DNA from: Limnomonas spitsbergensis
Lineage: Eukaryota > Chlorophyta > Chlorophyceae > Chlamydomonadales
Direction of reading: 5' to 3'
NCBI GenBank assembly: GCA_037349105.1
Contig: JAYJMM010000069.1
Coordinates: 62,001-126,000 of the forward strand
DNA: 64,000 bases
Of the stretch, positions 5,145 through 52,992 are shown in pieces. The notes beneath the pieces are model-generated. The model did no database searches. It was given only the letters and a program-made list of their open reading frames with translations, and had not been told where the DNA came from. The position numbers and the translations under genes were made by a program. The stretch's first letter is position 1; the number at the start of each line of letters is the position of its first letter.

Positions 5145-5237
5145 AAGCGACGAGTGTTTAATAAACCGGGCACAACCGACTTACTTTTGAATCGCCATGC
5201 AATCGCCATATGGCGCTCAATCACGGAATAGGACATC

Positions 5238-5820
5238 ACTGGCCCCCCTCCCACCCTAATGCACTGCCTGCATGCTGCATCACCGCCCCCTCCCATCCTA
5301 ATGCACTGCCTGCAGAATGCATCACCGCCCCCTCCCACCCTAATGCACTGCATGCAGAATACATCACCGCCCCCCTCCCACGCTAATGCACTGCCTGCAT
5401 GCTGCATCACCGCCTTCCTCCCATCCTAATGTACTGCCTGCAGAATGCATCACCGCCCCCCTCCCACCCTAATGCACTGCATGCAGAGTGCATCACCGCT
5501 CCTCTCCCACCCTAATGCACTGCATGCAGAATGCATCACCGCCCCCTCCCACCCTAATGCACTGCCTGCAGAATGCATCACCGCCCCCCTCCCACCCTAA
5601 TGCACTGCCTGCAGAATGCATCACCGCGCCCTCCCAACCTAATGCACTGCATGCAGAATACATCATCGCCCCCTCCCACCCTAATGCACTGCCTGCAGAA
5701 TGCATGACAGCCCCCCTCCCACCCTAATGCTCTGCATGCAAAATGCATCACTGCCCCCCTCCCACCCTAGTGCACTGCATGCAGAATACATCACTGCCCC
5801 TCCCACCCTAATGCACTGCC
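5238..5820. repeat. 43-bp satellite, small block (about 13 units)
   Basis: Tandem units of 42-44 bp have the consensus CTCCCACCCTAATGCACTGC followed by CTGCAGAATGCATCACCGCC and a C-run of variable length. Units differ mainly in the C-run length and in CAGAATGCA versus CATGCTGCA at one position. It is the same family as the large block at 10.03-15.39 kb. Short open frames in several phases are by-products of the repeat. Confidence 0.95.
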
Positions 5821-5824
5821 TGGC

Positions 5825-11300: not shown

Positions 11301-14300
11301 GCCCCCCTCCCACCCTAATGCACTGCCTACAGAATACATCACCACCCCCCTCCCACCCTAATGCACTGCCTGCAGAATGCATCACCGCCCCCTCCCACCC
11401 TAATGCACTGCCTGCAGAATGTATCACCGCCCCCTCCCACCCTAATGCACTGCATGCAGAATGCATCACCGCGCCCCTCCCACCCTAATGCACTGCCTGC
11501 AGAATACATCACCACCCCCCTCCCACCCTAATGCACTGCCTGCAAAATGCATCACCGCCCCCTCCCACCCTAAGGCACTGCCTGCAGAATACATCACCGC
11601 CCACTCCCACCCTAATGCACTGCCTGCAGAATGAATCACCGCCCCCCTCCCACCCTAATGCACTGCCTTCATGCTGCATCACCGCCCCCTCCCACCCTAA
11701 TGCACTGCCTGCATGCTGCATCACCGCCCCCCTTCCACCCTAATGCACTGCCTGCAGAATACATCACCGCCCCCCTTCCACCCTAATGCACTGCCTGCAT
11801 GCTGCATCACCGCCCCCCTCCCACCCTAATGCACTGCCTGCACACTGCGCCACCGCTCCCCTCCCGCCCTAATGCACTGCCTGCAGAATGCATCACCGCC
11901 CCCCTCCCACCCTAATGCACTGCCTGCAGAATGTATCACCGCCCCCCTCCCACCCTAATGCACTGCCTGCATGCTGCACCACGGCCCCCCTCCCACCCTA
12001 GTGCACTGCATGCATAATGCATCACCGCCCCCTCCCTTCCTAATGCACTGCCTGCAGAATGTATAACCGCCCCCCTGCCATCCTAATGCACTGCCTGCAG
12101 AATGCATCACCGCCCCCCTCCCACCCTAATGCACTGCATGCAGAATATATTACCGCCCCCCTCCCACCCTAATGCACTTCCTGCAGAATACATCACCGCC
12201 CACTCCCACCCTAATGCACTGCCTGCAAAATGCATCACCGCCCCCCTCTCACCCTAATGCACTGCCTGCAGAATGCATCACCGCCCCCCTCCCACCCTAA
12301 TGCACTGCCTACAGAATACATCACCGCCCCCTCCCACCCTAAGGCACTGCCTGCAGAATACATCACCGCCCACTCCCACCCTAATGCACTGCCTGCAAAA
12401 TGCATCACCGCCCCCCTCTCACCCTAATGCACTGCCTGCATAATGCATCACCGCACCCTCCCGCCCTAATGCACTGCCTGCAGAATGCATCACCGCCCCC
12501 CTCCCACCCTAATGCACTGCCTACAGAATACATCACCACCCCCCTCCCACCCTAATGCACTGCCTGCAGAATGCATCACCGCCCCCTCCCACCCTAATGC
12601 ACTGCCTGCAGAATGTATCACCGCCCCCTCACACCCTAATGCACTGCATGCAGAATGCATCACCGCGCCCCTCCCACCCTAATGCACTGCCTGCAGAATA
12701 CATCACCACCCCCCTCCCACCCTAATGCACTGCCTGCAGAATGCATCACCGCGCCCCTCCCACCCTAATGCACTGCCTGCAGAATACATCACGGCCCCCT
12801 CCCACCCTAATGCACTGCCTGCAGAATGAATCACCGCCCCCCTCCCACCCTAATGCACTGCCTTCATGCTGCATCACCGCCCCCTCCCACCCTAATGCAC
12901 TGCCTGCAGTATACATCACCGTCCCCTCCCACCCTAATGCACTGCCTGCATGCTGCATCACCGCCCCCCTCCCACCCTAATGCTCTGCCTGCAGAATGCA
13001 TCACCACCCCCCTCCCATCCTAATGCACTGCCTGCAGAATGCATCACTTCCTCCCACACTAATGCACTGCCTGCAGAATGCATCACCGCCCCCTCCCACC
13101 CTAATGCACTGCCTGCAGAATGCATCACCGCCCCCCTCCCACCCTAATGCACTGCCTGCATGATGCATCACCGCCCCCCTCCCACCCTAATGCACTGCCT
13201 GCAGAATACATCACCGCCCCCCTCCCACCCTAATGCTCTGCCTGCAGAATGCATCACCGCCCCCTCCCACCCTAATGCACTGCCTGCAGAATGCATCACC
13301 GCCCCCCTCCCACCCTAAGGCAGTGCCTGCATGCTGCATCACCGCCCCCCTCCCTTCCTAATGCACTGCCTGCAGAATGCATCACCGCCCCCCTCCCACC
13401 CTAATGCACTGCCTTCATGCTGCATCACTGCGCCCTCCCGCCCTAATGCACTGCCTGCAGAATGCATCACCGCCCCCCTCCCACCCTAATGCACTGCCTG
13501 CAGAATGCATCACCGCCCCCTACCACTCTAATGCACTGCCTGAAGAATGTATCACCGCCCCCTCCCACCCTAATGCACTGCCTGAAGAATGTATCACCGC
13601 CCCCTCCCACCCTAATGCACTGCCTGCAGAATACATCACCGCCCCCTCCCACCCTAATGCACTGCCTGCAGAATGCATCACCGCCCCCTACCACTCTAAT
13701 GCACTGCCTGAAGAATGTATCACCGCCCCCTCCCACCCTAATGCACTGCCTGCAGAATGCATCACCGCCCCCCTCCCACCCTAATGCACTGCCTTCATGC
13801 TGCATCACCGCGCCCTCCCGCCCTAATGCACTGCCTGCAGAATGCATCACCGCCCCCCTCCCACCCTAATGCACTGCCTGCAGAATACATCACCGCCCCC
13901 TCCCACCCTAATGCACTGCCTGCAGAATGCATCACCGCCCCCTACCACTCTAATGCACTGCCTGAAGAATGTATCACCGCCCCCTCCCACCCTAATGCAC
14001 TGCCTGCAGAATGCATCACCGCGCCCCTCCCACCCTAATGCACTGCCTACAGAATGCAACACCACCCCCCTCCCACCCTAGTGCTCTGCCTGCAGAGTGT
14101 ATCACCGCCCCCCTCCCACCCTAATGCACTGCCTGCATGCTGCATCACCGCCACCTCCCACCCTAATGCACTACCTGCAGAATGCATCACCGCCCCCCTC
14201 CCATCCTAGTGCACTGCATGCAGAATGCATCACTGCGCCCCTCCCACCCTAATGCACTGCCTGCAGAATGCATCACCGCCCCCCTCCCACCCTAATGCAT

Positions 14301-16422
14301 TGCCTGCAGAATGCATCACCGCGCCCCTCCCACCCTAATGCACTGCCTTCATGTTGCATCACCGCCCCCCTCCCACCCTAATGCACTGCCTGCAGAATAC
14401 ATCACCACCCCCCTCCCACCCTAATGCACTGCCTGCATGCTGCATCACCGCCCCCCTCCCACCCTAATGCGCTGCCTGCAGAATACATCACCGCCCCCCT
14501 CCCACCCTAATGCACTGCTTTCATGCTGCATCACCGCCCCCCTCCCACCCTAATGCACTGCTTGCATAATACATCACCGCCCCCCTCCCACCCTTATGCA
14601 CTGCATGCAGAATGCATCACCGCCCCCCTCCCACCCTAATGCACTGCCTGCATGATGCATCACCGCCCCCCTCCCACCCTAATGCACTGCCTGCAGAATG
14701 CATCACCACCCCCCTCCCACCCTAATGCACTGTCTGCAGAATACATCACCGCCCCCCTCCCACCCTAATGCACTACCTATAGAATACATCACCGCGCCCC
14801 TCCCACCCTAATGCACTGCCTGCAGAATGCATCACCGCCCCCCTCCCACCCTAATGCACTGCCTGCATAATACATCACCGCCCCCCTCCCACCCTAATGC
14901 ACTGCCTTCATGCTGCATCACCACCCCCCTCCCATCCTAATGCACTGCCTGCAGAATACATCACCGCGCCCCTCCCACCCTAATGCACTGCATGCATGCT
15001 GCATCACCGCCCCCCTCCGACCCTAATGCACTGCCTGCAGAATGCATCACCGCCCCCCTCCCACCCTAATGCACTGCCTGCAGAATGCATCACCCCCCCC
15101 TTCCCACCCTTATGCACTTCCTGCATAATGCATCACCGCTCCTCTCCCACCCTAATGCACTGCCTGCAGAATGTATCACCGCCCCCCTCCCACCCTAATG
15201 CACTACCTGCAGAATGCATCACCGCTCCTCTCCCACCCTAATGCACTGCATGCATGCTGAATCACCGCCCCCCTCCCATCCTAATGCACTGCTTGCAGAA
15301 TACATCACCGCCCCCTCCCACCCTAATGCACTGCATGCAGAATACATCACCGCCCCCCTCCCACCCTTATGCACTTCCTGCAGAATGTATCACCGCTGCT
15401 GTGATTATTGATGTAGCTACTGTTGTTGATGCTTTTGTTGTTGATGATGCGGTTGTTGATGCTGCTCCGGCTGTTGTTGCTGTTGTTGTGGTTGTTCCTG
15501 CTTTGGCTCATGCAGCAACAGCTAAAACAACAGCTTCCTCTCCGGACACAGTCCCCCCTGCAGCTGCGCCTCATTTTTTAATGTTTGCTTTCGTTACTGC
15601 TTTTCCTCCGGCTGTTGCTGCTACAGTTGTTGGTGTTGTTTTTGCTGTTGCTCCGGCTCATTGAGGCTCATCACTTTCATTTTGTTTGCTAATTCGTAAG
15701 CAATACTAAGCATCCATGCAGTGCAGATGTGAAGATATGGGAGGGTTTGATGCCGCTATACTTGTACCGACATTTCCTACTGCCCCACTCAGCCATCACA
15801 GTACACTACCTCAAAGGCAAGGCTTGCCATGAAACCGAGCTGTCTCTTTCGAAGGGAGTTGTCCAACTTCCGGACAACTTGTTCAACAATCCAAACAACC
15901 GACTTCGCTTCGCGAAGAAGGAAGCCGGCAGCACGCCCATGCAACGCGAATACCGGGATATGGAATTCCAGGAGCTTCATATGAAGCTAGGGGAACACCT
16001 GTGGATCAAGATTGACAAGCTCATGCAGGGTGAGTTATGGAGCTGCTTGTAACTTGTCCTTGGCATGCCTAGACATATTTCCTATTTAAATCAGACAGTT
16101 GTTGCTTGTGTAGGCCCCGCATGGCTTCGTTGGATACTGCCAATGTGACAAGCGTGTGTGCTTTATAACAGGACGCCGGTGGCACCTCCGCTTGTTGGCA
16201 TGGCCTGCACAATATGTGCTATGGACAGCAATTTTGGGGGCGATGTCCTCCGGGGGCAACATGCTCTTGCATGCCCTCGGCGCAGCAGAGGTCATTATTG
16301 ACTCAAGAAGGTGGTTGTTGCAGGGTATTGAAAGCATGGTAAAGAGGGGCAAGCCGGGGGAGACTAGCAATGGAGAAGTGATGAATGAGGCTCGCCGTGT
16401 GGCCACCGACTACTGGCCCTAA
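8304..16422 (+). CDS. Hypothetical protein, three exons, intron filled by satellite
   Basis: Exons are 8304-8502, 15727-16029 and 16172-16422. The joins are phase-consistent: exon 1 ends AAGAAAG before GTGATT, exon 2 starts after TGCAG with AT completing an Asp codon, exon 2 ends before GTGAGT, and exon 3 starts after ATAACAG. The stop is TAA. The product would be about 250 residues. Readable parts include DFDLDVAGLDPNVLTYAGKE, IWEGLMPLYLYRHFLLPHS and GRRWHLRLLAWPAQYVLW. The last part has a hydrophobic stretch around LAWPAQYVLWTAILGAM. I do not recognise the family. The start is uncertain: ATG 8304 and ATG 8319 are in frame, but an acceptor-like CTAACAG ends at 8317, so the true 5' exon may be upstream. 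The first intron is about 7.2 kb, most of it the 43-bp satellite. Confidence 0.5.
9290..9790. repeat. Dispersed repeat, copy 2 (pairs with 5825-6340)
   Basis: This is the partner of the segment at 5825-6340, diverged by substitutions and small indels. It lies within the long first intron of the hypothetical gene, about 240 bp before the large satellite block begins. Confidence 0.6.
10029..15392. repeat. 43-bp satellite, main array (about 125 units)
   Basis: Tandem 42-44-bp units share a TAATGCACTGCCTGCAGAAT core followed by GCATCACCGC and a run of C, then CTCCCACCC. Variants such as CACACTGCGCCACCGC, GTATAACCGC and CCACTCTAATGCACTGCCTG mark individual units and reveal higher-order duplications, for example a block near 10494 repeated 1236 bp later. 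The array lies inside the first intron of the hypothetical gene and ends about 330 bp before its second exon. The many proline- and histidine-rich open frames are artefacts of unit lengths near a multiple of three. Confidence 0.97.
15393..15664. repeat. GTT/GCT trinucleotide-rich low-complexity stretch
   Basis: Repeated TGTTGTTGATGC and GCTGTTGTTGCTGTTG motifs give Val/Ala-rich (plus) or Asn/Ser-rich (minus) open frames. It sits between the satellite and the acceptor of the second exon at 15727, and is best read as intron sequence. Confidence 0.7.
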
Positions 16423-18456: not shown

Positions 18457-18789
18457 GTAAGTAGATGAGCTGGCTTTGCAGGAACAAACAAATTGAGGCT
18501 GAGTTCCCCTAGCTTTGCAAATTTCAAGTACCATTTGGGCGGACTTGTGGGGTGACCCCTTCGATAAGCTGTTGTTAGGCTGCTAGGCCCATACAATTTT
18601 GAGAGGCCCAATTTGCCTTTTATATTGCAGTGACTGACATAATGCGCATCTCGGAGCGTTGTGGCAGCTGTCGGTTGGTACGTCAGTGGCTTTGCTGCGG
18701 TGGCCTTTGCTTGGCCTCAGTTTATGTGCACTATGACGCAAGGTTGTTGGTTGTTCAAACTGATGTAACAAGTAAATTCAAAACCTAGG
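18457..18789. other. Stretch without a supported gene
   Basis: I see no supported coding region between the zinc-ribbon exon and the 138-bp repeat. A last short exon of the upstream gene cannot be ruled out. Confidence 0.3.
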
Positions 18790-19290
18790 GCTGGACAATA
18801 GGGCCACAATTCAATGCCTTCATAGCCCATTCATAATTCCTTCAGTTTATGCCCATTGCTTTGGGCCCACTGGCCTGAGCTTATGACGGCTGTTCAGCCC
18901 GATGTCACTGATAAAATTCAAAACCTGCTGCTGGACCATAGGGCCACAGATCAATGCCTTCATAGCCCATTCCTAATTCCTTCAGTTATGTCCATGCTTC
19001 GGTCCCACTGGCCTGAGCTTATGACGGCTGTTCAGCCCGATGTCACTGATTAAATTCAAAACCTACGGCTGGACCATAGGGCCACAGCTCAATGCCTTCA
19101 TAGCCCATTCCTAATTCCTTCAGTTATGTCCATGCTTCGGTCCCACTGGCCTGAGCTTATGACGGCTGTTCAGCCCGATGTCACTGATTAAATTCAAAAC
19201 CTACGGTTGGACCATAGGGCCACAGCTCAATGCCTTCAGAGCCCATTCATAATTCCTATAGCCTATGTCCATGCTTCGGGCCCACTGTGA
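18790..19290. repeat. Tandem repeat of about 138 bp, 3-4 copies
   Basis: The words CTTCATAGCCCATTC, TGACGGCTGTTCAGCCCGAT and GACCATAGGGCCACA recur at steps of 137-140 bp. Copies two and three are nearly identical and the first and last are more diverged, as expected for tandem duplication with edge decay. Confidence 0.9.
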
Positions 19291-20279: not shown

Positions 20280-23200
20280 TTGCAAATGCAGAGCCTGCCG
20301 GACAACAGCCCGGACCTCATCCTCCTTAGCTTGTTGCTCAACAGTTGCCCCCACAAAAACATCAAGAGTGTGTTCCCAAGATTGCTGATTCTTCAGCATC
20401 GCATCCTCTGCCCGCTTGTCTCTCGTCGCATGGCTCCTATGTTTGGTAGTGATGCACAAGTGAGGAGTGAGTAAGTAAATACCTTAAAAAGCCGAGGAAT
20501 ACAGCAGGCTCTCACAGATTTCATGTTGAAGGACGGTCAAATGGTCAAGTGGTCAAGCAGTGAAAAATTCATATGGTACCTGCTGTTATGGATCCATGCA
20601 GACAAGAGGCCCTTGTCCCGCACAAGGCTCTCTCTGCAGTACAGGGCCAAGCCCACCGGCTGGCCTTTGTGGTCAGTGTAAACATGCTTCATCGTGAAGT
20701 TTGTGCCTTCACACTTTCCGGTTGTGACGTTTGTCGTGGCTGTCACAGGAATTTCAGCAGTGGTGCCGGTGAAATTGTTGCACAGCTCGCCGTGGAACCC
20801 GTGAAGGATGGGTAGAGACATGGGGGCATGCATGCCAGCCGCTGCCGCAACCTTCGCTGCTCCAGGGCAAAAAAGCGGATTGACAACAAGGATGCCTGCC
20901 AGCACAAACTCCTCCTCTGCCACCTCAGCCTCAACAAACCAGGCTGAGATGTCGTGTCGAGGGCCGTTTTCTTCTTGTTGCTCCTCCTCCGGGTCAGCCT
21001 CCGGGTCGGGGCATGCCATCTCCTCCAACTCCTCCATCGTCTTGACATCATCATCATAGATGCGCAACTTCATAGAGGGGGGAGGAAAATCAACATAATA
21101 AGTGATGAACTTGATTTTGGCCCCAGATCACCCCATTTTGCCCCAAGCCGGCACGCTCAAAGCCCGCTTTAAGGGCAGGCACGCAACATGTGGTCCAAGA
21201 AAAGTCAGATTTCAACAGGAGAACAAAATATTATGCATCGTGAAAGGCAGCTAGGACTATCCTGCAAATCGTGATAAATTCTGACAAACTCAATTTGGGC
21301 CCCAGATCACCCCATTTTGCCCCAAGCCGGCACGCTCAAAGCCCGCTTAAAGGGCAGGCACGCAACATGTGGTCCAAGAAAAGTCAGATTTCAACAGGAG
21401 AACAAAATATAATGCATCGTGATAGGCAGCTAGGACTATCCTGCAAATCGTGATAAATTCTGACAAAATCAATTTGGGCCCCAGATCACCCCATTTTGCC
21501 CCAAGCCGGCACGCTCAAAGCCCGCTTTAAGGGCAGGCACGCAACATGTGGTCCAAGAAAAGTCAGATTTCAACAGGAGAACAAAATATTATGCATCGTG
21601 ATAGGCAGCTAGGACTATCCTGCAAATCTTGATAAATTCTGACAAACTCAATTTGGGCCGCAGATCACCCCATTTTGCCCCAAGCCGGCACGCTCAAAGC
21701 CCGCTTTCATCGCAAGCAAGCAGCAGGTGGTCCAAGAAAAGTCAGATTTCAACAGGAGAACAAAATATTATGCATCAGCATAGGCAGCTAGGACTATCCT
21801 GCAAATCGTGATAAATTCTGACAAACTCAATTTGGGCCCCAGATCACCCCATTTTGCCCCAAGCCGGCACGCTCAAAGCCCGCTTAAAGGGCAGGCACGC
21901 AACATGTGGTCCAAGAAAAGTCAGATTTCAACAGGAGAACAAAATATTATGCATCGTGATAGGCAGCTAGGACTATCCTGCAAATCTTGATAAATTCTGA
22001 CAAACTCAATTTGGGCCGCAGATCACCCCATTTTGTCCCAAGCCGGCACGCTCAAAGCCCGCTTTCATCGCAAGCAAGCAGCAGGTGGTCCAAGAAAAGT
22101 CAGATTTCAACAGGAGAACAAAATATTATGCATCAGCATAGGCAGCTAGGACTATCCTGCAAATCGTGATAAATTCTGACAAACTCAATTTGGGCCCCAG
22201 ATCACCCCATTTTGCCCCAAGCCGGCACGCTCAAAGCCCGCTTTAAGGGCAAGCACGCAGCAGGTGGTCCAAGAAAAGTCAGATTTCAACAGGAGAACAA
22301 AATATCATGCATCAGCATAGGCAGCTAGGACTATCCTGCAAATCTTGATGAATTATGACAAACTTGATTTGGGCCCCTGATCACCCCATTTTCTGGAGAC
22401 ACAAGGAAGCAATAGTAAAAGCAGGCAAGCAGAGTTACGCTACGATGACAGGCCCATGGCCGGTGGCCTGAGCAGCAGGGATCCTTGCACCAGGCCCCCA
22501 CGGCCAAAGGCCGCGGGGTACTTGAATTGTTCCTGGAGCGTGCTAAATAATCCCTGGCAAGCAGAGGCATGAAATTTAACTTACCAAACCACCCACTGTG
22601 TCAATGTACCAACCATGGCGGCCCCTCGCCTTACAGAATTTCCAGCGTCTGACTTGCCCCTCAATGGCGCGCACAATGAGGAAGTGCCCATCCTCCAAGT
22701 TGACGACCAGCTGTGTGTCTCCATACATGATCCTGCCGGCCTCCGGGGTGGCATTCATGTCCTGCTCTGCCAGATCCTTAGACAGCAGAATCAGGGACAG
22801 CACGTCGTCTTTGTGGCGGATGAAACGCCGCTTGTGCTCCTCCGAGATGGCCTGCCTAAGGACTTGGGAAGAGGTGCCAACCAAGCTGGTTGTGTTGTCA
22901 AGCTGGTGCACAAGCGGCCGGGCACTGAGGCTGAGTGCATGCGTATAGGCTGGTGCTCTGCCTACCGCTGTGGTGACAGCTGCCTGGCGTGCTGCCCCAC
23001 AGAGTCTTCCTACCACTCTCCCGCCTGAGGTGTGCTGGCAGTCTCCGTTGAAGACCACGCGCATCTCGCCTGGAGCATCGCGAGTTTGCATGAGCATGCA
23101 TGCCCCGGGGCACCCGTTTTGCATCTGCACACAGCATCTACAGAAGTACCACTGGGCATCCTCATGGACAGCTTTACCCAAGGCCTTCGTGCGGTTGGTT

Positions 23201-29082: not shown

Positions 29083-29262
29083 TGCTTGCCCGCCTACCTA
29101 CCTGCCTGCTTGTTTGCCTGCCTGCTTGCTTGCTTGCTTGCCCGCCTACCTGCTTGTTTGCCTGCCTGCTTGCTTGCTTGCCCGCCTACCTGCCTGCCTA
29201 CCTGCTTGCTTGCCTGCCTGCCTGCTTGCTTGCTTGCCTGCCTTCCTGCCTGCCTCATAGGA
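29083..29262. repeat. CTTG/CCTG/CTAC tetranucleotide microsatellite
   Basis: This is about 180 bp of (TGCC)(TGCT)(TACC)-type units. It directly precedes the acceptor of the decayed exon copy at 29266 and serves as its pyrimidine tract on the plus strand. Confidence 0.95.
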
Positions 29263-29265
29263 TGG

Positions 29266-29327
29266 TACCAACAAGTGGCCGATCTGATCCCTATGGACAA
29301 GAATCTGGCAGCCTTCTTCAGGACAAC
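29266..29327 (+). pseudogene. Exon echo: partial copy of exon 29392-29522
   Basis: CATAGGATGGTACC(A/G)ACAAG and the following 60 nt are repeated 126 bp upstream of the real exon with only a few changes. The copy includes the acceptor AG. It breaks off where the true exon continues AGAGCGGGAACCAC, and has no good donor there. Confidence 0.8.
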
Positions 29328-29391: not shown

Positions 29392-32300
29392 GATGGTACC
29401 GACAAGTGGCCGATCTGATCCCTATGGACAGGAATCTGGCAGCCTTCTTCAGAGCGGGAACCACAATGTTCACTGGCCTGTTCAAGGAAGCCAGGCCCAC
29501 AGTCAAGGAGCATGTTCAGGAGGTATGATGTTCCCGAATGACCTGAATCACCCGAATAGGAAACACCGAGTTAGTGGGAAGGCTAGGCCCACCGTGTAGG
29601 GAGCATACTAGCATAGGAGCTCAATCCATGTCAATGTGTGCTGTATCATGCTACCTTGGTAGTGCAATCCGGATGCTGCTTTGCCGTATCGAGCTACTGT
29701 GTTAAGGAGCATGTTAGCAGGACAGGGATGCAGCAGGGTGAGGAGCGGATGATCCTCTTTGAAGCTAGGGAAAGGAAACGCGCTTCCGTTAGCGTGGATT
29801 GAGGAGTATGGCACTGGCTGGACATGCCGTGTTTTGTTGTATTTTCATATTTTTGAGTGATCAAGACTTCAGAAAGTTACATGGGTATGGGGACTGAGGC
29901 GCCGAGCATGTGGAGGGTGTCATATGGGCAGGCTACTGCCCGCTGCCCTGCCACTCACTACTCTATCTGTGGCGCAGATTTGTCAAGCCATCAAGACCAC
30001 GGACCGGAATTACGGTATCGGGACTGAGGCGCAGCATGTGGAGAGCGTGGTGCTGCTGGACAAGGCACTGGCGAAATACCAGCGGTGGGTGCCCCATGCA
30101 CTGTTGTTGAACAAGACTCTGTAGAGTGCGGTGGGTACCCATGCACTGTTGTTGAACAAGGTGATATGGAGGTACCAACTGTGGATGTCCCACTGCCCCT
30201 GCACTGCTCTTGAACAGTGGCCAGGCGATAGGGCGGTACCAACTGTGGTGTCCCTCCCGTGGATAACAAAAGGTCGTCTGCTGTGCACCGAATAGATGTA
30301 CGGGCAAGTCTGATATTTGCATTGTTTACCTCACGCACCCTAATCCCTGAACCCTGTGTGGAGCGGCCTGAGCAATGTCATGTACCCTAAACCCAGAATC
30401 CTGTGCGCAGCGGCCTGAGCAACGTCATTTACCCTAAACCCTGAACCCTGTGCGCAGCGGCCTGAGCAACCTCACGTACCCTAAACCCTGAACCCTGTGC
30501 GCAGCGGCCTGAGCAACCTCACGTACCCTAAACCCTGAACCCTGTGCGCAGCGGCCTGAGCAACCTCACGTACCCTAAACCCTGAACCCTGTGCGCAGCG
30601 GCCTGAGCAACGTCATGTACCCTAAACCCTGAACCCTGTGCGCAGCGGCCTGAGCAACCTCACGTACCCTAAACCCAGAACCCTGTGCGCAGCGGCCTGA
30701 GCAACCTCACGTACCCTAAACCCTGAACCCTGTACGCAGCGGCCTGAGCAACCTCACGTACCCTAAACCCTGAACCCTGTGCGCAGCGGCCTGAGCAACC
30801 TCACGTACCTTAAACCCTGAACCCTGTGCGCAGCGGCCTGAGCAACCTCACGTACCCTAAACCCTGAACCCTGTGCGCAGCGGCCTGAGCAACCTCACGC
30901 ACCCTAAACCCAGAACCCTGTGCGCAGCGGCCTGAGCAACCTCACGTACCCTAAACCCTAAACCCTGAACCCTGTGCGCAGCGGCCTGAGCAACCTCACG
31001 TACCCTAAACCCTGAACCCTGTGCACAGCGGCCTGAGCAACCTCACGTACCCTAAACCCAGAACCCTGTGCGCAGCGGCCTGAGCAACGTCATGTACCCT
31101 AAACCCTGAACCCTGTGCGCAGCGGCTTGAGCAACCTCACGTACCCTAAACCCAGAACCCTGTGCGCAGCGGCCTGAGCAACCTCACGTACCCTAAACCC
31201 TGAACCCTGTGCGCAGCGGCCTGAGCAACCTCACGTACCTTAAACCCTGAACCCTGTGCGCAGCGGCCTGAGCAACCTCACGTACCCTAAACCCTGAACC
31301 CTGTGCGCAGCGGCCTGAGCAACCTCACGTACCCTAAACCCTGAACCCTGTGCGCAGCGGCCTGAGCAACGTCATGTACCCTAAACCCTGAACCCTGTGC
31401 GCAGCGGCCTGAGCAACCTCACGTACCCTAAACCCAGAACCATGTGCGCAGCGGCCTGAGCAACCTCACGTACCCTAAACCCTGAACCCTGTACGCAGCG
31501 GCCTGAGCAACCTCACGTACCCTAAACCCTGAACCCTGTGCGCAGCGGCCTGAGCAACCTCACGTACCCTAAACCCTGAACCCTGTGCGCAGCGGCCTGA
31601 GCAACCTCACGTACCCTAAACCCTGAACCCTGTGCGCAGCGGCCTGAGCAACCTCACGTACCCTAAACCCTGAACCCTGTGCGCAGCGGCCTGAGCAACC
31701 TCACGCACCCTAAACCCAGAACCCTGTGCGCAGCGGCCTGAGCAACCTCACGTACCCTAAACCCTAAACCCTGAACCCTGTGCGCAGCGGCCTGAGCAAC
31801 CTCACGTACCCTAAACCCTGAACCCTGTGCACAGCGGCCTGAGCAACCTCACGTACCCTAAACCCAGAACCCTGTGCGCAGCGGCCTGAGCAACGTCATG
31901 TACCCTAAACCCTGAACCCTGTGCGCAGCGGCTTGAGCAACCTCACGTACCCTAAACCCAGAACCCTGTGCGCAGCGGCCTGAGCAACCTCACGTACCCT
32001 AAACCCTGAACCCTGTGCGCAGCGGCCTGAGCAACCTCACGTACCTTAAACCCTGAACCCTGTGCGCAGCGGCCTGAGCAACCTCACGTACCCTAAACCC
32101 TGAACCCTGTGCGCAGCGGCCTGAGCAACCTCACGTACCCTAAACCCTGAACCCTGTGCGCAGCGGCCTGAGCAACCTCACGCACCCTAAACCCAGAACC
32201 CTGTGCGCAGCGGCCTGAGCAACCTCACGTACCCTAAACCCTAAACCCTGAACCCTGTGCGCAGCGGCCTGAGCAACCTCACGTACCCTAAACCCTGAAC

Positions 32301-34613
32301 CCTGTGCGCAGCGGCCTGAGCAACGTCATGTACCCTAAACCCTGAACCCTGTGCGCAGCGGCCTGAGCAACCTCACGTACCCTAAACCCAGAACCCTGTG
32401 CGCAGCGGCCTGAGCAACCTCACGTACCCTAAACCCTGAACCCTGTGCGCAGCGGCCTGAGCAACCTCACGTACCTTAAACCCTGAACCCTGTGCGCAGC
32501 GGCCTGAGCAACCTCACGTACCCTAAACCCTGAACCCTGTGCGCAGCGGCCTGAGCAACCTCACGTACCCTAAACCCTGAACCCTGTGCGCAGCGGCCTG
32601 AGCAACGTCATGTACCCTAAACCCTGAACCCTGTGCGCAGCGGCCTGAGCAACCTCACGTACCCTAAACCCAGAACCATGTGCGCAGCGGCCTGAGCAAC
32701 CTCACGTACCCTAAACCCTGAACCCTGTACGCAGCGGCCTGAGCAACCTCACGTACCCTAAACCCTGAACCCTGTGCGCAGCGGCCTGAGCAACCTCACG
32801 TACCCTAAACCCTGAATCCTGTGCGCAGCGGCCTGAGCAACCTCACGTACCCTAAACCCTGAACCCTGTGCGCAGCGGCCTGAGCAACCTCACGTACCTT
32901 AAACCCTGAACCCTGTGCGCAGCGGCCTGAGCAACGTCATGTACCCTAAACCCTGAACCCTGTGCGCAGCGGCCTGAGCAACCTCACGTACCCTAAACCC
33001 AGAACCCTGTGCGCAGCGGCCTGAGCAACCTCACGTACCCTAAACCCTGAACCCTGTACGCAGCGGCCTGAGCAACCTCACGTACCCTAAACCCTGAACC
33101 CTGTGCGCAGCGGCCTGAGCAACCTCACGTACCCTAAACCCTGAACCCTGTGCGCAGCGGCCTGAGCAACCTCACGTACCCTAAACCCTGAACCCTGTGC
33201 GCAGCGGCCTGAGCAACCTCACGTACCTTAAACCCTGAACCCTGTGCGCAGCGGCCTGAGCAACCTCACGTACCCTAAACCCTGAACCCTGTGCGCAGCG
33301 GCCTGAGCAACCTCACGTACCGCACGCGGATGATCCACAGCCTCGCCTACACGCGCATCGCCACCTCCTCGCCGCCACACATCTCTGCCAGCATCATGGC
33401 CTCCTGCTGGCCTTACGTGGTGCACGGGCCTCCCATAATAAAAGCGTACATCGACAGGGCTGAAGAGGAGAAAGTACTGCAGCCACTGGCGCAATCGAAT
33501 ACGGCACTGATGTGGCAGTACGATCATCTGCTGGCACATGGTCCCAGGGTCCCTACTGGATGCTCTCAGACAGCTGCTGGAAGCTGCCAGGAAGGTGCAG
33601 ATGCACCCTGGGTAACTGCCAGAAGCTCTCAAGCAGCTGCTGGAAGCTGCCAGGAAGCTGCAGGTACACCCAGGTTAACTGCCGGAGGCTACCAGGTAGC
33701 TGCTGGAAGGTGTCAAGAAGCCGCAGGTGCACCCTGGGTACCTACTGGAAGCTCTCAGGCAGCTGCTGGAAGGTGCCAAGAAGTTGCCGGAAGCCCCCAG
33801 GTACCTGCCAGAGGCTCCCAGACAGCTGCCAGAAGGTATCAGGAACCTGCCAGAAGCTCCCAGGCAGCTCCCCGAAGGTACCAGGGACCTGCCGGAAGTT
33901 CCCGTGTACCTGCCAGCGGCTCCAACACAGCATCTGCTCTGTCCTTGCCACCCAGTTTGGTGTTGCACCAGGTGCAAGGCATGAGTACCCAGCTCTCAGC
34001 GGCAGCTGGGAATGGCCAGCCTTCATCCACAACTGGGAATGGCCAGCCCTCAGCCACAGCTGTAAGCTGGGGGAAGGCTAGACGGGACGCCAGGGATGGC
34101 GCGGGTGCGCAGAGGCTGGGTCTGACGCGCCTCCGGCCTGAGGGTCCTGCCGTCCCAGATCTGTCAGATTTAGGTCCAGCCGTCCTAGATCTGTCAGATT
34201 TAGGTCCAGCCGTCCTAGATCTAACAGATCCATATCCAGATCCGGATCCTGGAGGCTCTCCCTGGTCGGCCAACTGCGAGCCAAGAGCTGCCATGGAGGA
34301 CCTCTTGGATGCCGCACGGAACGCATCGTGGCCCATGACGCGGCAGCTTGGCATTGGGCCAGAGCGCCTGGAGGAGCCAACTAGGTGTCCCATGAAACAG
34401 GTGGCAATGGCGAGCCATGCCGCTGTGTCAGAGGCCCTCCCTTACCAGTTTGGACAGGGGCAGGAGGTCGAGACTGGCTTTCACTTGAGGGGGGGGCATG
34501 TGGAGGACCCCGCCGTGTCTGACGCCACCGTGGCCCTCGTCAGCCAGTTTGCTGGTGAGGAGGGATGGCTGGAAGCCTTGGGCCGCCTCTATCCTGCCTT
34601 TGGATCCGGCTAG
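29392..34613 (+). CDS. Unrecognised multi-exon gene with an amplified splice acceptor
   Basis: Exons with matching phases are 29392-29522 (after CTCATAG, before GTATGA), 29978-30084 (after GCGCAG, before GTGGGT) and one starting at 33299 (after GTGCGCAG). They read WYRQVADLIPMDRNLAAFF... then ICQAIKTTDRNYGIGTEAQ... ending LLDKALAKYQR, then GLSNLTYRTRMIHSLAYTRI and AYIDRAEEEKVLQPLAQ. After about 33535 the frame runs through degenerate 60-bp repeats, so further introns are likely. The last coding part ends ALVSQFAGEEGWLEALGRLY and stops at 34613. I do not recognise the family, and upstream exons are not found. Neighbouring introns carry decayed or amplified copies of the exon edges. Confidence 0.5.
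30080..30165 (+). repeat. Donor-side echo after exon 29978-30084
   Basis: GCGGTGGGTGCCCCATGCAC with TGTTGTTGAACAAG, which spans the donor, recurs at 30128-30162 as GCGGTGGGTACCCATGCAC. A third, poorer copy lies near 30190-30225. Confidence 0.75.
30330..33320 (+). repeat. 47-bp tandem array carrying a splice acceptor in every unit (about 63 copies)
   Basis: The unit reads CCCTAAACCCTGAACCCTGT, then GCGCAG, then CGGCCTGAGCAACCTCACGTA. The first part matches the end of an intron, with a telomere-like CCCTAAACCC and an acceptor GCGCAG. The second part is identical to the first 21-22 nt of the exon that begins at 33299. The array ends exactly where that exon goes on with CGCACGCGGATG. Sequence variants (GTACGCAG, GTGCACAG, ACCATGTGCGCAG, an extra CCCTAAA) recur at larger steps of about 0.8 and 1.2 kb, so blocks of units were also duplicated. 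Confidence 0.97.
33560..33920 (+). repeat. Degenerate 30/60-bp repeats (GCTGGAAGCTGCCAGGAAG type)
   Basis: AGCTGCTGGAAGCTGCCAGG and variants recur. In one frame the first copy reads LLDALRQLLEAARKVQMHPG, the second LPEALKQLLEAARKLQVHPG, and later ones decay to PEAPRQLPEG. The first copy may be coding and the rest echoes of it in an intron, or all may be translated as a repeat region. The sequence does not settle this. Confidence 0.6.
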
Positions 34614-46700: not shown

Positions 46701-49700
46701 AAATGGATTTTAGGACATCTAATGCCAGTCTTTTTTGCGGGGCAGGGAATGCCTCAGCACTGCTAACGCAGCACCTGCTCCAAGGCACTCGAGCAGTTAC
46801 CTGTGAAAAGGCACTACATCCCGCTCCACGACGTCAATCCAAGCGCCGGGGGCGCTGCAAATGGGTCGATTCCAGCAATCCTGCAGAGGGACCAACAGGG
46901 GGCCATTCAGCAGTTTTTGTGCCGGGGGTTGAACATACACTGCGAGGTCTGCGAATGGATCGGCTCAAAAAAACGAGGGTTTATCTGCCGGAGACGACCT
47001 TGGAGGACTATCCCCGGCAGATACAGTTGCATGCCCCAATCATCCTGCACAGCCAGCAGGGTTGTACCCCAAAGTTGGTACCCCGAGCTTATTTTGGCTG
47101 CTATTACCAGCTGGTCAAACATGATGCTCCCGAAGTTGGTCAAGCATGGTACTTCAGAGCGTCGAACAATAAGGGTCCCCCCCCATCCCTTCCGTTGGTG
47201 CCCTGATCCCCCCCATCCCTTCCGTTGGTGCCCTGATCCCCCCCATCCCTTCCGTTGGTGCCCTGATCCCCCCCATCCCTTCCGTTGGTGCCCTGATCCC
47301 CCCCATCCCTTCCATTGGTGCCCTGATCCCCCCCCATCCCTTCCGTTGGTGCCCTGATCCCCCCCCATCCCTTCCGTTGGTGCCCTGATCCCCCCCCATC
47401 CCTTCCGTTGGTGCCCTGGTCCCCCCCCATCCCTTCCGTTGGAACCCTGATCCCCCCCCATCCCTTCCGTTGGTGCCCTGATCCCCCCCATCCCTTCCGT
47501 TGGTGCCCTGATCCCCCCCATCCCTTCCGTTGGTGCCCTGATCCCCCCCCATCCCTTCCATTGGTGCCCTGATCCCCCCCCATCCCTTCCGTTGGTGCCC
47601 TGATCCCCCCCATCCGTTCCGTTGGTGCCCTGATCCCCCCCCATCCCTTCCGTTGGTGCTCTGATCCCCCCCATCCCTTCCGTTGGTGCCCTGATCCCCC
47701 CCCATCCCTTCCGTTGGTGCCCTGATCACCCCCATCCCTTCCGTTGGTGCCCTGATCTCCCCCCATCCCTTCCGTTGGTGCCCTGATCCCCCCCCATCCC
47801 TCCTGTTGGTGCCCTGATCCCCCCCATCCCTTCTGTTAGTGCCCTGATCCCCCCCATCCCTTCCGTTGGTGCCCTGATCCCCCCCATCCCTTCCGTTGGT
47901 GCCCTGATCCCCCCCCATCCCTTCCGTTGGTGCCCTGATCCCCCCCATCCCTTCCGTTGGTGCCCTGATCCCCCCCATCCCTTCCGTTGGTGCCCTGATC
48001 CACCCCCATCCCTTCCGTTGGTGCCCTGATCCTCCCTTCCGTTGGTGCCCTCATCCCCCCCCATCCCTTCCGTTGGTGCCCTGATCCCCCACATCCCTTC
48101 CGTTGGTGCCCTGATCCCCCCCATCCCTTCCGTTGGTGCCCTGATCCCCCCCCATCCCTTCCGTTGGTGCCCTGATCCCCCCCCATCCCTTCCATTGGTA
48201 CCCTGATCCCCCCCCATCCCTTCCGTTGGTGCCCTGATTCCCCCCTTACCTTCCGTTGGTGCCCTGATCCCCCCCATCCCTTCTGTTGGTGCCCTGATCA
48301 CCCCCATCCCTTCCGTTGGTGCCCTGATCCCCCCCATCCCTTCCGTTGGTGCCCTGATCCCCCACATCCCTTCCGTTGGTGCCCTGATCCCCCCCCCATC
48401 CCTTCCGTTGGTGCCCTGATCCCCCCCCATCCCTTCTGTTGGTGCCCTGATCCCCCCCATCCCTTCCGTTGGTGCCTGATCCCCCCCATCCCTTCCGTTG
48501 GTGCCCTGATCCCCCCCCATCCCTTCCGTTGGTGCCCTGATCCCCCCCATCCCTTCCGTTGGTGCCCTGATCCCCCCCCATCCCTTCCGTTGGTGCCCTG
48601 ATCCCCCCCCATCCCTTCCGTTGGTGCCCTCATCCCCCCCCATCCCTTCCGTTGGTGCCCTGATCCCCCCCCATCCCTTCCGTTGGAGCCCTGATCCCCC
48701 CCATCCCTTCCGTTGGTGCCCTGATCCCACCCCATCCCTTCCGTTGGAGCCCTGATCCCCCCCATCCCTTCCGTTGGTGCCCTGATCCCCCCCATCCCTT
48801 CCGTTGGTGCCCTGATCCCCCCCATCCCTTCCGTTGGTGCCCTGATCCCCCCCATCCCTTCCGTTGGTGCCCTGATCCCCCCCATCCCTTCCGTTGGTGC
48901 CCTGATCCCCCCCATCCCTTCCGTTGGTGCCCTGATCCGCCCCATCCCTTCCGTTGGTGCCCTGATCCCCCCCATCCCTTCCGTTGGTGCCCTGATCCCC
49001 CCCATCCCTTCCGTTGGTGCCCTGGTCCCCCCCCATCCCTTCCGTTGGTGCCCTGATCCCCCCCCATCCCTTCCGTTGGTGCCCTGATCCCCCCCCATCC
49101 CTTCCGTTGGTGCCCTGATCCCCCCCCATCCCTTCCGTTGGTGCCCTGATTCCCCCCCTACCTTCCGTTGGTGCCCTGATCCCCCCCCATCCTTTCTGTT
49201 GGTGCCCTGATCCCCCCCATCCCTTCCGTTGGTGCCCTGATCCCCCCCATCCCTTCCGTTGGTGCCTGATCCCCCCCATCCCTTCCGTTGGTGCCCTGAT
49301 CCCCCACATCCCTTCCGTTGGTGCCCTGATCCCCCCCATCCCTTCCGTTGGTGCCCTGATCCCCCCCTATCCCTTCCGTTGGTGCCCTGATCCCCCCCCA
49401 TCCCTTCCGTTGGTGCCCTGATCCCCCCCCATCCCTTCCGTTGGTGCCCTGATCCCCCCCCATCCCTTCCGTTGGAGCCCTGATCCCCCCCATCCCTTCC
49501 GTTGGTGCCCTGAACCCCCCCATCCCTTCCGTTGGTGCCCTGATCCCCCCCCATCCCTTCCGTTGGTGCCCTGGTCCCCCCCCATCCCTTCCGTTGGAAC
49601 CCTGATCCCCCCCCATCCCTTCCGTTGGTGCCCTGATCTCCCCCATCCCTTCCGTTGATGCCCTGATCCCCCCCATCCCTTCCGTTGGTGCCCTGATCCC

Positions 49701-52700
49701 CCCCCATCCCTTCCGTTGGTGCCCTGATCCCCCCCCATCCCTTCCGTTGGTGCCCTGATCCCCCCCATCCGTTCCGTTGGTGCCCTGATCCCCCCCCATC
49801 CCTTCCGTTGGTGCTCTGATCCCCCCCATCCCTTCCGTTGGTGCCCTGATCTCCCCCCATCCCTTCCGTTGGTGCCCTGATCCCCCCCCATCCCTCCTGT
49901 TGGTGCCCTGATCCCCCCCATCCCTTCCGTTGGTGCCCTAATCCCCCCCCATCCCTCCTGTTGGTGCCCTGATCCCCCCCATCCCTTCTGTTGGTGCCCT
50001 GATCCCCCCCATCCCTTCCGTTGGTGCCCTGATCCCCCCTATCCCTTCCGTTGGTGCCCTGATCCCCCCCCATCCCTTCCGTTGGTGCCCTGATCCCCCC
50101 CATCCCTTCCGTGGGTGCCCTGATCCCCCCCATCCCTGCTGTTGGTGCCCTGATCCACCCCCATCCCTTCCGTTGGTGCCCTGATCCTCCCTTCCGTTGG
50201 TGCCCTGATCCCCCCCATCCCTTCCGTTGGTGCCCTGATCCCCCACATCCCTTTCGTTGGTGCCCTGATCCCCCCCCATCCCTTCCGTTGGTGCCCTGAT
50301 CCCCCCCCATCCCTTCCGTTGGTGCCCTGATCCCCCCCCATCCCTTCCGTTGGTGCCCTGATCCCCCCCCATCCCTTCCGTTGGTGCCCTGATTCCCCCC
50401 TTACCTTCCGTTGGTGCCCTGATCCCCCCCCATCCCTTCTGTTGGTGCCCTGATCACCCCCATCCCTTCCGTTGGTGCCCTGATCCCCCCCCATCCCTTC
50501 CGTTGGTGCCCTGATCGCCCCCCATCCCTTCCGTTGGTGCCCTCATCCCCCCCCATCCCTTCCGTTGGTGCCCTGATCCCCCCCCATCCCTTCCGTTGGT
50601 GCCCTGATCCCCCCCATCCGTTCCGTTGGTGCCCTGATCCCCCCCCATCCCTTCCGTTGGTGCTCTGATCCCCCCCATCCCTTCCGTTGGTGCCCTGATC
50701 TCCCCCCATCCCTTCCGTTGGTGCCCTGATCCCCCCCCATCCCTCCTGTTGGTGCCCTGATCCCCCCCATCCCTTCCGTTGGTGCCCTAATCCCCCCCCA
50801 TCCCTCCTGTTGGTGCCCTGATCCCCCCCATCCCTTCTGTTGGTGCCCTGATCCCCCCCATCCCTTCCGTTGGTGCCCTGATCCCCCCTATCCCTTCCGT
50901 TGGTGCCCTGATCCCCCCCCATCCCTTCCGTTGGTGCCCTGATCCCCCCCATCCCTTCCGTGGGTGCCCTGATCCCCCCCATCCCTGCTGTTGGTGCCCT
51001 GATCCACCCCCATCCCTTCCGTTGGTGCCCTGATCCTCCCTTCCGTTGGTGCCCTGATCCCCCCCATCCCTTCCGTTGGTGCCCTGATCCCCCACATCCC
51101 TTTCATTGGTGCCCTGATCCCCCCCCATCCCTTCCGTTGGTGCCCTGATCCCCCCCCATCCCTTCCGTTGGTGCCCTGATCCCCCCCCATCCCTTACGTT
51201 GGTGCCCTGATCCCCCCCCATCCCTTCCGTTGGTGCCCTGATTCCCCCCTTACCTTCCGTTGGTGCCCTGATCCCCCCCCATCCCTTCTGTTGGTGCCCT
51301 GATCACCCCCATCCCTTCCGTTGGTGCCCTGATCCCCCCCCATCCCTTCCGTTGGTGCCCTGATCGCCCCCCATCCCTTCCGTTGGTGCCCTCATCCCCC
51401 CCCATCCCTTCCGTTGGTGCCCTGATCCCCCCCCATCCCTTCCGTTGGAGCCCTGATCCCCCCCATCCCTTCCGTTGGTGCCCTGATCCCCCCCATCCCT
51501 TCCGTTGGTGCCCTGATCCCCCCCATCCCTTCCGTTGGTGCCCTGATCCCCCCCCATCCCTTCCGTTGGTGCCCTGATCCCCCCCATCCCTTCCGTTGGT
51601 GCCCTGATCCCCCCCATCCCTTCCGTTGGTGCCCTGATCCCCCCCATCCCTTCCGTTGGTGCCCTGATCCCCCCCAACCCTTCCGTTGGTGCCCTGATCC
51701 CCCACATCCCTTCCGTTGGTGCCCTGATCCCCCCCCATCCCTTCCGTTGGTGCCCTGATCCCCCCCATCCCTTCCGTTGGTGCCCTGATCCCCCCCCATC
51801 CCTTCCGTTGGTGCCCTGATCCCCCCCCATCCCTTCCGTTGATGCCCTGATTCCCCCCTTACCTTCCGTTGGTGCCCTGATCCCCCCCCATCCCTTCTGT
51901 TGGAGCCCTGATCCCCCCCATCCCTTCCGTTGGTGCCCTGATCCCCCCCATCCCTTCCGTTGGTGCCTGATCCCCCCCATCCCTTCCGTTGGTGCCCTGA
52001 TCCCCCCCCATCCCTTCCGTTGGTGCCCTGATCCCCCCCATCCCTTCCGTTGGTGCCCTGATCCCCCCCCATCCCTTCCGTTGGTGCCCTGATCCCCCCC
52101 CATCCCTTCCGTTGGCGCCCTCATCCCCCCCCATCCCTTCCGTTGGTGCCCTGATCCCCCCCCATCCCTTCCGTTGGTGCGCTGATCCCCCCCCATCCCT
52201 TCCGTTGGTGCCATGAACCCCCCATACCTTCCGCTGGTGCCCTGATCCCCCCCATCCCTTCCGTTGGAGCCCTGATCCCCCCCATCCCTTCCGTTGGTGC
52301 CCTGATCCCCCCCATCCCTTCCGTTGGTGCCCTGATCCCCCCCATCCCTCCTGTTGGTGCCCTGATCCCCCCCCATCCCTTCCGTTGGAGCCCTGATCCC
52401 CCCCCATCCCTTCCGTTGGTGCCCTGATCCCCCCCATCCCTTCTGTTGGTGCCCTGATCCCCCCCCATCCCTTCCGTTGGAGCCCTGATCCCCCCCATCC
52501 CTTCCGTTGGTGCCCTGATCCCCCCCTTCCCTTCCGTTGGAGCCCTGATCCCCCCCCATCCCTTCCGTTGGTGCCCTGATCCCCCCCATCCCTTCCGTTG
52601 GTGCCCTGATCCCCCCCATCCCTTCCGTTGGTACCCTGATCCCCCCCATCCCTTCCGTTGGTGCCCTGATCCCCCCCATCCCTTCCGTTGGTGCCCTGAT

Positions 52701-52992
52701 CCCCCCCCATCCCTTCCGTTGGTGCCCTGATGCCCCCCCGCCCTGGCCGTAACATCCCGCACCCTGGCCGTAACATCCCCCACCCTGGCCGAAACATCCC
52801 CCGCCCTGGACCAATCCTGGCCCGATCCTCGGTGATCTGGCCCGGGAGACCTGCAGGTCTGACTAGACAGAGGACCCCCCTATCCAATCAGTGGGTTTAG
52901 GCCAAGGGGGGCTGACGGACACTCACTTTGATTCGAGAGAACACGCGGCGATCATAGAAGTCCTCCTCCTTCTCTCGAATGGGAGCATAACC
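37778..52992 (-). CDS. LCB2: Serine palmitoyltransferase catalytic subunit (LCB2), 13 exons, 5' end not found
   Basis: Exons in transcript order: 52992-52927, 46880-46801, 46603-46437, 46040-45916, 45154-45069, 44932-44848, 44093-43960, 42948-42887, 41923-41733, 40934-40770, 39887-39789, 39043-38978, 38026-37778. All introns are GT-AG and all phases agree, giving 524 residues. The enzyme joins L-serine and palmitoyl-CoA to 3-ketosphinganine at the ER, paired with LCB1. Landmarks are GYAPI with [87 protein letters not shown], the PLP-lysine motif [26 protein letters not shown] and [13 protein letters not shown]. The N-terminal 40-60 residues with the membrane helix are missing and should lie beyond 53 kb. 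The last exon adds a repeat-rich tail ([14 protein letters not shown]) absent from typical LCB2. The DCWNRP and GYAPI segments exclude ALAS or KBL. Confidence 0.95.
38138..38578 (-). repeat. Echoes of the 5' edge of the last LCB2 exon (3 copies)
   Basis: Decayed copies of the start of exon 13 ([13 protein letters not shown]) lie at about 38138-38162, 38345-38375 and 38548-38578. They read for example [11 protein letters not shown] and [13 protein letters not shown]. They are about 200 bp apart, inside the intron just upstream of the real exon. Confidence 0.75.
39240..39730 (-). repeat. Echoes of LCB2 exon 11 (3 copies downstream of it)
   Basis: Exon 11 carries [20 protein letters not shown]. 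Decayed copies follow in the next intron at about 39650-39730 ([10 protein letters not shown]), 39375-39450 ([17 protein letters not shown]) and 39240-39320 ([20 protein letters not shown]). The first also keeps a donor-like GTACGAGG after LE, but has a frameshift. Confidence 0.8.
39926..40312 (-). repeat. Echoes of the acceptor and start of LCB2 exon 11 (4 copies)
   Basis: The real junction is CATGCAG before GTCGTCGTGGGCCC. Copies with CAG before GTTGTCGTGGGCCC or the like lie near 39930, 40050, 40205 and 40290, spaced by intron sequence rich in CCCTAAA-type words. Each offers a plausible acceptor followed by VVVGPP and then loses similarity. Confidence 0.8.
40505..40665 (-). repeat. Echoes of the 3' end of LCB2 exon 10 (2 copies)
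   Basis: The end of exon 10 includes ATCTTCAGCAGGATGTGCCT and GTGGCCACG before the donor. Copies at about 40625-40665 (ATCTTTGGCAGGATAT...GTGGCCACG before GTGTAT) and about 40505-40560 (ATCTTCAGCAGGATGTGCCT) lie in the downstream intron. Confidence 0.75.
41016..41675 (-). repeat. Echoes of the 5' part of LCB2 exon 10 (4 copies)
   Basis: Exon 10 begins [19 protein letters not shown]. Partial copies lie near 41033-41065 ([12 protein letters not shown]), 41386-41440, 41484-41513 (ADYVRR) and 41640-41672 (ELVKQL), in the intron before the exon. Confidence 0.7.
42000..42300 (-). repeat. Echoes of the PLP-lysine exon start (3 copies, period about 120 bp)
   Basis: The acceptor and first 30 nt of exon 9 ([12 protein letters not shown]) recur at about 42005-42050, 42127-42165 and 42250-42300. 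The most distant reads [12 protein letters not shown], with the catalytic Lys position changed to Gln. The intron sequence between copies is also repeated (TCTGGTTTAGGGTTA), so the duplicated unit spans intron plus exon edge. Confidence 0.85.
43000..43450. repeat. Degenerate GTGTGAGAGGCAGCAG repeat in an LCB2 intron
   Basis: About 20 imperfect units of roughly 18-24 bp with the core AAGTGTGAGAG(G/A)CAG. It lies in the intron 5' of exon 8 and gives long spurious Ser/His/Leu-rich frames on the minus strand. Confidence 0.85.
43606..43690 (-). pseudogene. Echo of LCB2 exon 7 (DEAHSIG exon)
   Basis: [20 protein letters not shown] and ITAIGR are encoded with a GT donor after R, copying [20 protein letters not shown] and SIGALGR of the real exon 44093-43960. 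The active-site Asp of LDEAH is Asn here, so the copy cannot serve as the normal exon. Confidence 0.8.
43810..43960. repeat. CCCCTGCCCACCTGC low-complexity run
   Basis: (CCTGCCC)(CACCTGC) units begin immediately at the donor of exon 7 (GTGGGCAGGGGCAGG on the minus strand). It looks like slippage growth from the splice donor into the intron. Confidence 0.9.
45225..45330 (-). repeat. Echo of LCB2 exon 5 start plus TTCAGGG microsatellite
   Basis: GAGATGAGGAGGCAGCCCTG with TCACACACC (plus strand), which spans the acceptor and first codons of exon 5, occurs at 45138-45167 and again about 95 bp on. It is followed in both copies by ATTCAGGGTTCAGG and ATAGATTTCACAGCTCAGGT. The second copy has an expanded TTCAGGG run. 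Confidence 0.85.
45551..45865 (-). repeat. Echoes of the 3' part of LCB2 exon 4 (2 copies)
   Basis: The exon end [17 protein letters not shown] before GTGTGT recurs at about 45805-45865 as [17 protein letters not shown] before GTGCAT. It recurs at about 45551-45606 as [17 protein letters not shown] before GTGCAC. Both keep the GT donor, and the nearer copy is 103 bp from the original. Confidence 0.85.
47174..52735. repeat. 30-bp minisatellite, about 185 copies, in an LCB2 intron
   Basis: The unit is ATCCCTTCCGTTGGTGCCCT followed by GAT and a run of 6-8 C. Variants (GTTCCGTTGG, TCCTGTTGG, a shortened GATCCTCCCTTCC unit) recur in the same order at steps of about 850 bp and about 2.15 kb, so large blocks were duplicated. 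It fills most of the 6.0-kb intron between LCB2 exons 52992-52927 and 46880-46801. Minus-strand open frames of up to 670 codons ([11 protein letters not shown] repeats) are by-products. Confidence 0.97.

Follow-up and report, generated by a model that had tools for sequence, protein, structure and literature searches.

Tandem repeats of intron–exon boundaries, formed at acceptors as well as at donors, are described in amphioxus as 'mirages' (PMC3087553, PMC3902484). In the passages cited, the affected genes are Adh3, the globin genes BflGb6 and BflGb9, TnC and PGBD5; the units measure 10-72 and 150-160 bp and bring in extra splice signals, and reverse transcription polymerase chain reaction (RT-PCR) suggests that regular splicing is undisturbed as far as tested, with copy number being unstable (PMC3087553, PMC3902484). 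For the BflGb6 mirage, the two haplotypes have six and three copies. The 64,000-nt stretch of DNA analysed here (positions 62,001 to 126,000 of contig JAYJMM010000069.1; hereafter the window) contains a tandem array of this kind, lying across a predicted splice acceptor at positions 30328..33321 of the plus strand. As in the amphioxus mirages, a unit composed of an intron end and the adjoining part of an exon is repeated in tandem with its splice signals kept. The array differs from them in its size (63 copies, compared with the six and three of the BflGb6 haplotypes), in the telomere-like nature of its intron part, in its host, which is likely a green alga, and in the occurrence of junction copies at about one sixth of the acceptors sampled in the same genome. 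The telomere-like motif CCCTAAA fits a green alga. Further, the splicing and length instability of the amphioxus mirages were studied by RT-PCR and genotyping, while the array described here is known from the sequence of one assembly.

We consider it probable that this array is a 'mirage' minisatellite that arose as a tolerated by-product of local duplication, and that the exon-proximal acceptor is the one used. The preliminary description of the locus knew of no gene with such an arrangement; this claim has to be withdrawn, since the amphioxus mirages in Adh3, the globins, TnC and PGBD5 are arranged in the same way (PMC3087553, PMC3902484). A literature search that covered few subscription journals turned up no algal example and no use of the name 'mirage' outside lancelets; boundary repeats in human genes did appear in it. 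New here are the host, a likely green alga, the large size of the array and the prevalence of exon-edge copies in this genome, the last being the more surprising part.

Tandem Repeats Finder reported a period of 47 bp, 63.3 copies and 94% matches for positions 30328-33321. When the array was cut at the acceptor, 63 junctions and 14 unit types were obtained; 59 units are 47 nt long, three are 54 nt long and contain one extra heptamer each, and the degenerate first unit has 46 nt. The unit joins 24 nt of intron end, carrying telomere-like heptamers (CTAAACCCTGAACCCTGTGCGCAG), to 23 nt that match the predicted exon start at 33299 (CGGCCTGAGCAACCTCACGTACC). The preliminary description had proposed the amplification of a splice acceptor together with the head of the following exon, and this is what the array contains, the exon-identical part being slightly longer than the 21-22 nt given there. 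All 63 junctions end in AG and 62 of them in CAG, indicating that the splice signals are kept in the copies. The most diverged units lie at the left end, as expected at an array edge; at the right end the array closes with a unit of the commonest type. This last unit (33275..33321) consists of 24 nt of telomere-like intron end, the acceptor 33298|33299 and 23 nt of exon, and is identical to the preceding unit at all 45 aligned nucleotides. Two blocks of units recur within the array, DIJKFELDHDD (11 units, at units 12 and 29) and DHDDEMGD (eight units, at units 19 and 45), while the longest recurring block in 1000 shuffles of the unit order was of five units. This recurrence points to the copying of whole blocks and to past turnover inside the array. 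A 30-mer taken from the unit occurs without mismatch at 43 positions in the 260-Mb assembly, every one of them inside this array; a 341-base query matched outside the array at seven places on five other contigs, with 65-72% identity, among the best candidates of a search that skipped very common words.

The predicted gene comprises three exons on the plus strand. Exon A (29392..29522) is bounded by the acceptor ATAG|GATGG and the donor GAG|GTATGA; exon B (29978..30084) ends in phase 2 at GCG|GTGGGT; and exon C (33299..34613) lies within a 444-codon open frame (33279-34613), with its stop at the frame end. In this prediction, which includes 33299 as the exon start, the three exons share one joined frame. 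The last acceptor (33298|33299) yields GLSNLTYRTRMIHS followed by the open frame, and is the sole acceptor to open a long frame. Each of the 62 acceptors upstream of 33299 would instead give GLSN..YPKP.. or a similar peptide with a stop 11-18 codons on; that only the last acceptor keeps the predicted frame had been anticipated when the locus was first described. The stop is located within the telomere-like tract for 49 of the 62 and in the next unit for the other 13. Because it alone keeps the predicted frame, the last acceptor is likely to be the one used. Two other ways of reading the array were discarded. Recursive splicing in the manner of a ratchet does not fit, since the units read CAG|CGG and not CAG|GT, so that no donor is regenerated; translation through the array does not fit either, because the predicted frame runs into a stop after every one of the 62 upstream junctions.

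The upstream junctions could also be seen as a regulated decoy array, in which they would divert a share of splicing to stop-containing mRNA that is degraded, the copy number setting the output. All 62 are AG sites with an early stop, and CTCAC, a putative branch-point-like motif, is present in 54 of the 63 units; both features would suit such a device. A special purpose is unneeded, however, as exon-edge copies are common in unrelated genes of this genome (see below), and the cited part of the lancelet work reports no aberrant mRNA from the Adh and TnC mirages (PMC3902484). We therefore regard a regulatory decoy as unlikely.

Several observations weigh against the tolerated-duplication reading and the use of the last acceptor. 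The intron leading to it would be 3214 nt long, which exceeds all 75 introns sampled in this genome (median 402, maximum 1940). An ordinary intron of 279 nt, and a stop after 18 codons, would result from the first decoy, whose first exon-like base is at 30364. A rule of scanning to the first AG would likewise favour the decoys. The codon use of exon C is weak overall. With a score trained on 4591 codons from dynein and CCT exons, exons A and B reached 0.15 and 0.49 bits/codon in the frames that join to C, their other frames falling below -0.4. The first 87 codons of exon C scored 0.04 bits/codon, positive only in the predicted frame (78 training exons began at 0.20); its repeat part scored -0.82, with both other frames better, and the part after the repeats -0.25, still above both other frames. 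By this measure, exon C looks coding at its start and doubtful in its repeats. In addition, the predicted protein has no detected homolog: a 167-residue predicted peptide found none in a large protein collection (13 candidates, none at E 0.01), Pfam or the PDB, exon C produced only a sub-threshold match to DUF1581 in Pfam, and no paralog or homolog that might fix the exon border was found in this genome.

In another possible arrangement there is no intron: the array would be a non-coding satellite, followed by a separate gene that starts at an ATG in the 33279-34613 frame, the array edge just extending into that frame. There is an in-frame ATG at 33330, the border is not fixed by any peptide homolog, and the implied intron is unusually long. 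Against this, exons A and B are coding-like exactly in the frames that join to C, their splice sites are plausible, and copies of their junctions also exist. An intronless layout therefore seems improbable to us.

The junction copies in this gene, all on the plus strand, accompany both exons. The acceptor of exon A has a copy at 29241..29321, formed by 20 nt of intron end and 61 nt of exon head (77 of 81 nt identical). A weak copy of the exon A tail occurs in the following intron at 29701..29722, without a GT after it (19/22; score 28, compared with 23 for the best of 300 shuffles). The intron preceding exon B contains, short of the acceptor, a decayed copy of the exon B interior (29884..29915; 29/32), and the donor of exon B (GCG|GTGGGT and the intron start) is copied downstream at 30128..30160 (32/34). 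Two control comparisons in the same gene gave nothing above shuffles.

The frequency of such copies elsewhere in the genome was estimated from 15 dynein AAA_9 stretches and four CCT genes, whose exons and introns were modelled by alignment to homologous proteins. The sample consisted of the 75 introns of at least 100 nt (47 from dynein AAA_9 and 28 from CCT), shorter introns, namely 4/51 in dynein and 1/29 in CCT, being left out. The closest PDB match of one dynein stretch was the inner-arm I1 dynein of entry 8glv, from Chlamydomonas, in keeping with a green alga as the likely host. For each junction, 10 nt of intron plus 10 nt of exon were compared with the interior of the intron, and a copy was scored at 16 or more identities of 20. 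Copies within their own intron were found for 12 of the 75 acceptors and six of the 75 donors, and in none of 300 mismatched exon–intron pairs for either, so that both borders are affected in this genome. With a threshold of 15/20 the counts were 14 acceptors and eight donors, with one of 300 mismatched pairs each; the AG is kept in 12 of these 14 acceptor rows, and five share at most 10 nt of exon. Exon heads were repeated (at least 15/20) in 14 of the 75 introns, compared with 2/75 for 20-mers from exon interiors (p = 0.0025), and 11 of those 14 had the AG in register (p = 0.017). Dynein exon heads were found in introns of other genes in only two of 235 cases. If the 11 dynein exon-head copies (two of them without AG) were used, a stop would be reached before the true exon in nine, and the frame would be shifted in the other two.

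Some of these counts call for caution. Four of the 12 acceptor rows obtained at 16/20 share no more than 10 nt of exon, and may just reflect similar intron ends, and two have lost the AG. For exon tails the excess was not significant (10/75, seven with GT, compared with 3/75 for inner-exon controls; p = 0.078). The genome is rich in tandem repeats: when 3800 AG sites were drawn at random from 19 loci, 1104 had an upstream 16/20 copy. The use of exon-proximal sites in dynein and CCT would follow from the models themselves, as the aligner picked the sites that fit the homologs. Among the 47 dynein introns (L042-L056), 11 carry the telomere-like motif CCCTRAA within 60 nt of their 3' end (17 C-strand versus no G-strand motifs), whereas such tracts end none of the 28 CCT introns. 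We also asked whether a telomere-like motif followed by CAG could serve to find mirages. Of 20 such sites, 10 had an upstream copy of at least 16/20 (eight with the AG in register). Random AG sites in the same loci match often too (the 1104 of 3800 mentioned above, 899 with AG), and this set was therefore not counted as an enrichment.

The dynein genes also help to judge whether exon-edge copies mark a pseudogene, the array being an unconstrained part of a decaying gene. The lack of a homolog and the weak codon bias would agree with decay. However, dynein genes marked in a similar way retain conserved, open exons, and the array's own gene remains open for 437 codons from 33299 to 34613, a length that no open run attained in 2000 base shuffles of this stretch (maximum 305), with inner minisatellites in exon C whose periods (63, 126, 42, 27 and 30 bp) are all multiples of three. 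Decay of the gene thus appears very unlikely.

Individual loci show what these repeated junctions look like. In a dynein locus (L045, 303-1395; C119:2228100-2233500), the donor AAACAG|GTGCA begins an array of 36.4 copies of a 30-bp unit, a donor-side counterpart of the array described above; the unit length is divisible by three, and the first copies read open. Two loci were first met in the set defined by the telomere-like motif and CAG. One (L039) contains a protein kinase exon (Pfam E 1.3e-18) with eight junction copies spaced 49 bp. Telomere-like sequence adjoins seven of these copies, and the eighth is linked to a decayed copy of the exon that is longer; a ninth junction then opens the kinase frame. 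The other (L040) has a PLAT exon (E 1.6e-7) with three junctions, the last of which opens the frame. In L054, an acceptor unit of 187 bp is present in three tandem copies, with a match of 152/153 nt on the intron side, and the donor has four junction copies. In L044 (238-649), two 89-nt junction copies (87/89) flank 56 nt of unmatched filler. The evidence on the origin of these copies is mixed: L054, being in tandem, would suit simple tandem duplication, and L044, with its filler, an insertion accompanied by a long duplication.

The window includes other features. On its minus strand, at 1098-5180, an open frame of 1360 codons contains a reverse transcriptase domain (RVT_1, E 4.5e-20). One 43-bp unit forms two arrays, at 10031-15396 (about 126 copies) and 5234-5822 (about 14 copies), and about 183 copies of a 30-bp unit occupy 47178-52739, where the minus strand has long open frames. 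Two further tandem arrays are located at 18773-19287 (138 bp, 3.7 copies) and 21114-22392 (179 bp, 7.1 copies).

Since conserved genes unrelated to this one frequently have exon-edge copies too, donor side included, a general duplication process is favoured over a purpose-built switch, and the array would not be one gene's device. Such arrays probably begin with a local duplication that places a splice site, together with the edge of its exon, inside the intron. With splicing kept at the exon-proximal copy the protein would not be altered, so the duplication would be nearly harmless and could persist; the unit can then be multiplied by unequal exchange or slippage. The telomere-like tract in each unit (CCCTAAACCCTGAACCC) would likely serve as polypyrimidine tract, and its G-rich complement may promote expansion. 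The last acceptor and its neighbour have equal intron sides, so that any discrimination between them would need to depend on exon-side features, in the manner of exon definition. For the conserved genes, an unchanged protein would be expected only with use of the exon-proximal copy, as their conservation suggests. More broadly, and here our view is tentative and somewhat short of even confidence, this genome may extend its introns at the edges, local duplications carrying splice sites and exon edges inward, up to 63 acceptors or 36 donors, and being tolerated since the spliceosome reliably picks the exon-proximal one among identical sites.

Related arrangements are known from other settings. 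The human CBS gene contains a 31-bp variable number tandem repeat (c.1444_1467+7; 16-21 units) across an exon end (PMC2630376). As its name implies, the unit crosses from the exon into the intron (24 nt of exon and 7 nt of intron); unlike the array described here, it is on the donor side, and its closer match in this genome is the dynein array of L045. Minisatellites at exon–intron boundaries, with units of about 30 bp that alter splicing, are also described for human segmental duplications (PMC2812944); these occur in recent primate paralogs and average about four copies. PMC3443670 reviews the gain of introns through duplication, and direct repeats at splice sites, including insertion with direct repeats during break repair, are treated in PMC2809761 and PMC11782384. 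The outline of these models resembles the process proposed here in that a local duplication, by tandem genomic duplication or break repair, includes splice sites and the coding sequence can stay unchanged. They propose new introns, however, whereas here existing introns appear to lengthen at their edges.

If the tolerated-duplication reading is true, mirages, described in lancelets, would gain a likely green alga as a host, one whose conserved genes carry milder versions of the arrangement. Most studies of splice-site choice compare a small number of competing sites. With its 63 near-identical acceptor intron sides, a natural gene of this kind would make exon definition, as opposed to AG scanning, directly testable, and would show a route for introns to lengthen without change to the protein.

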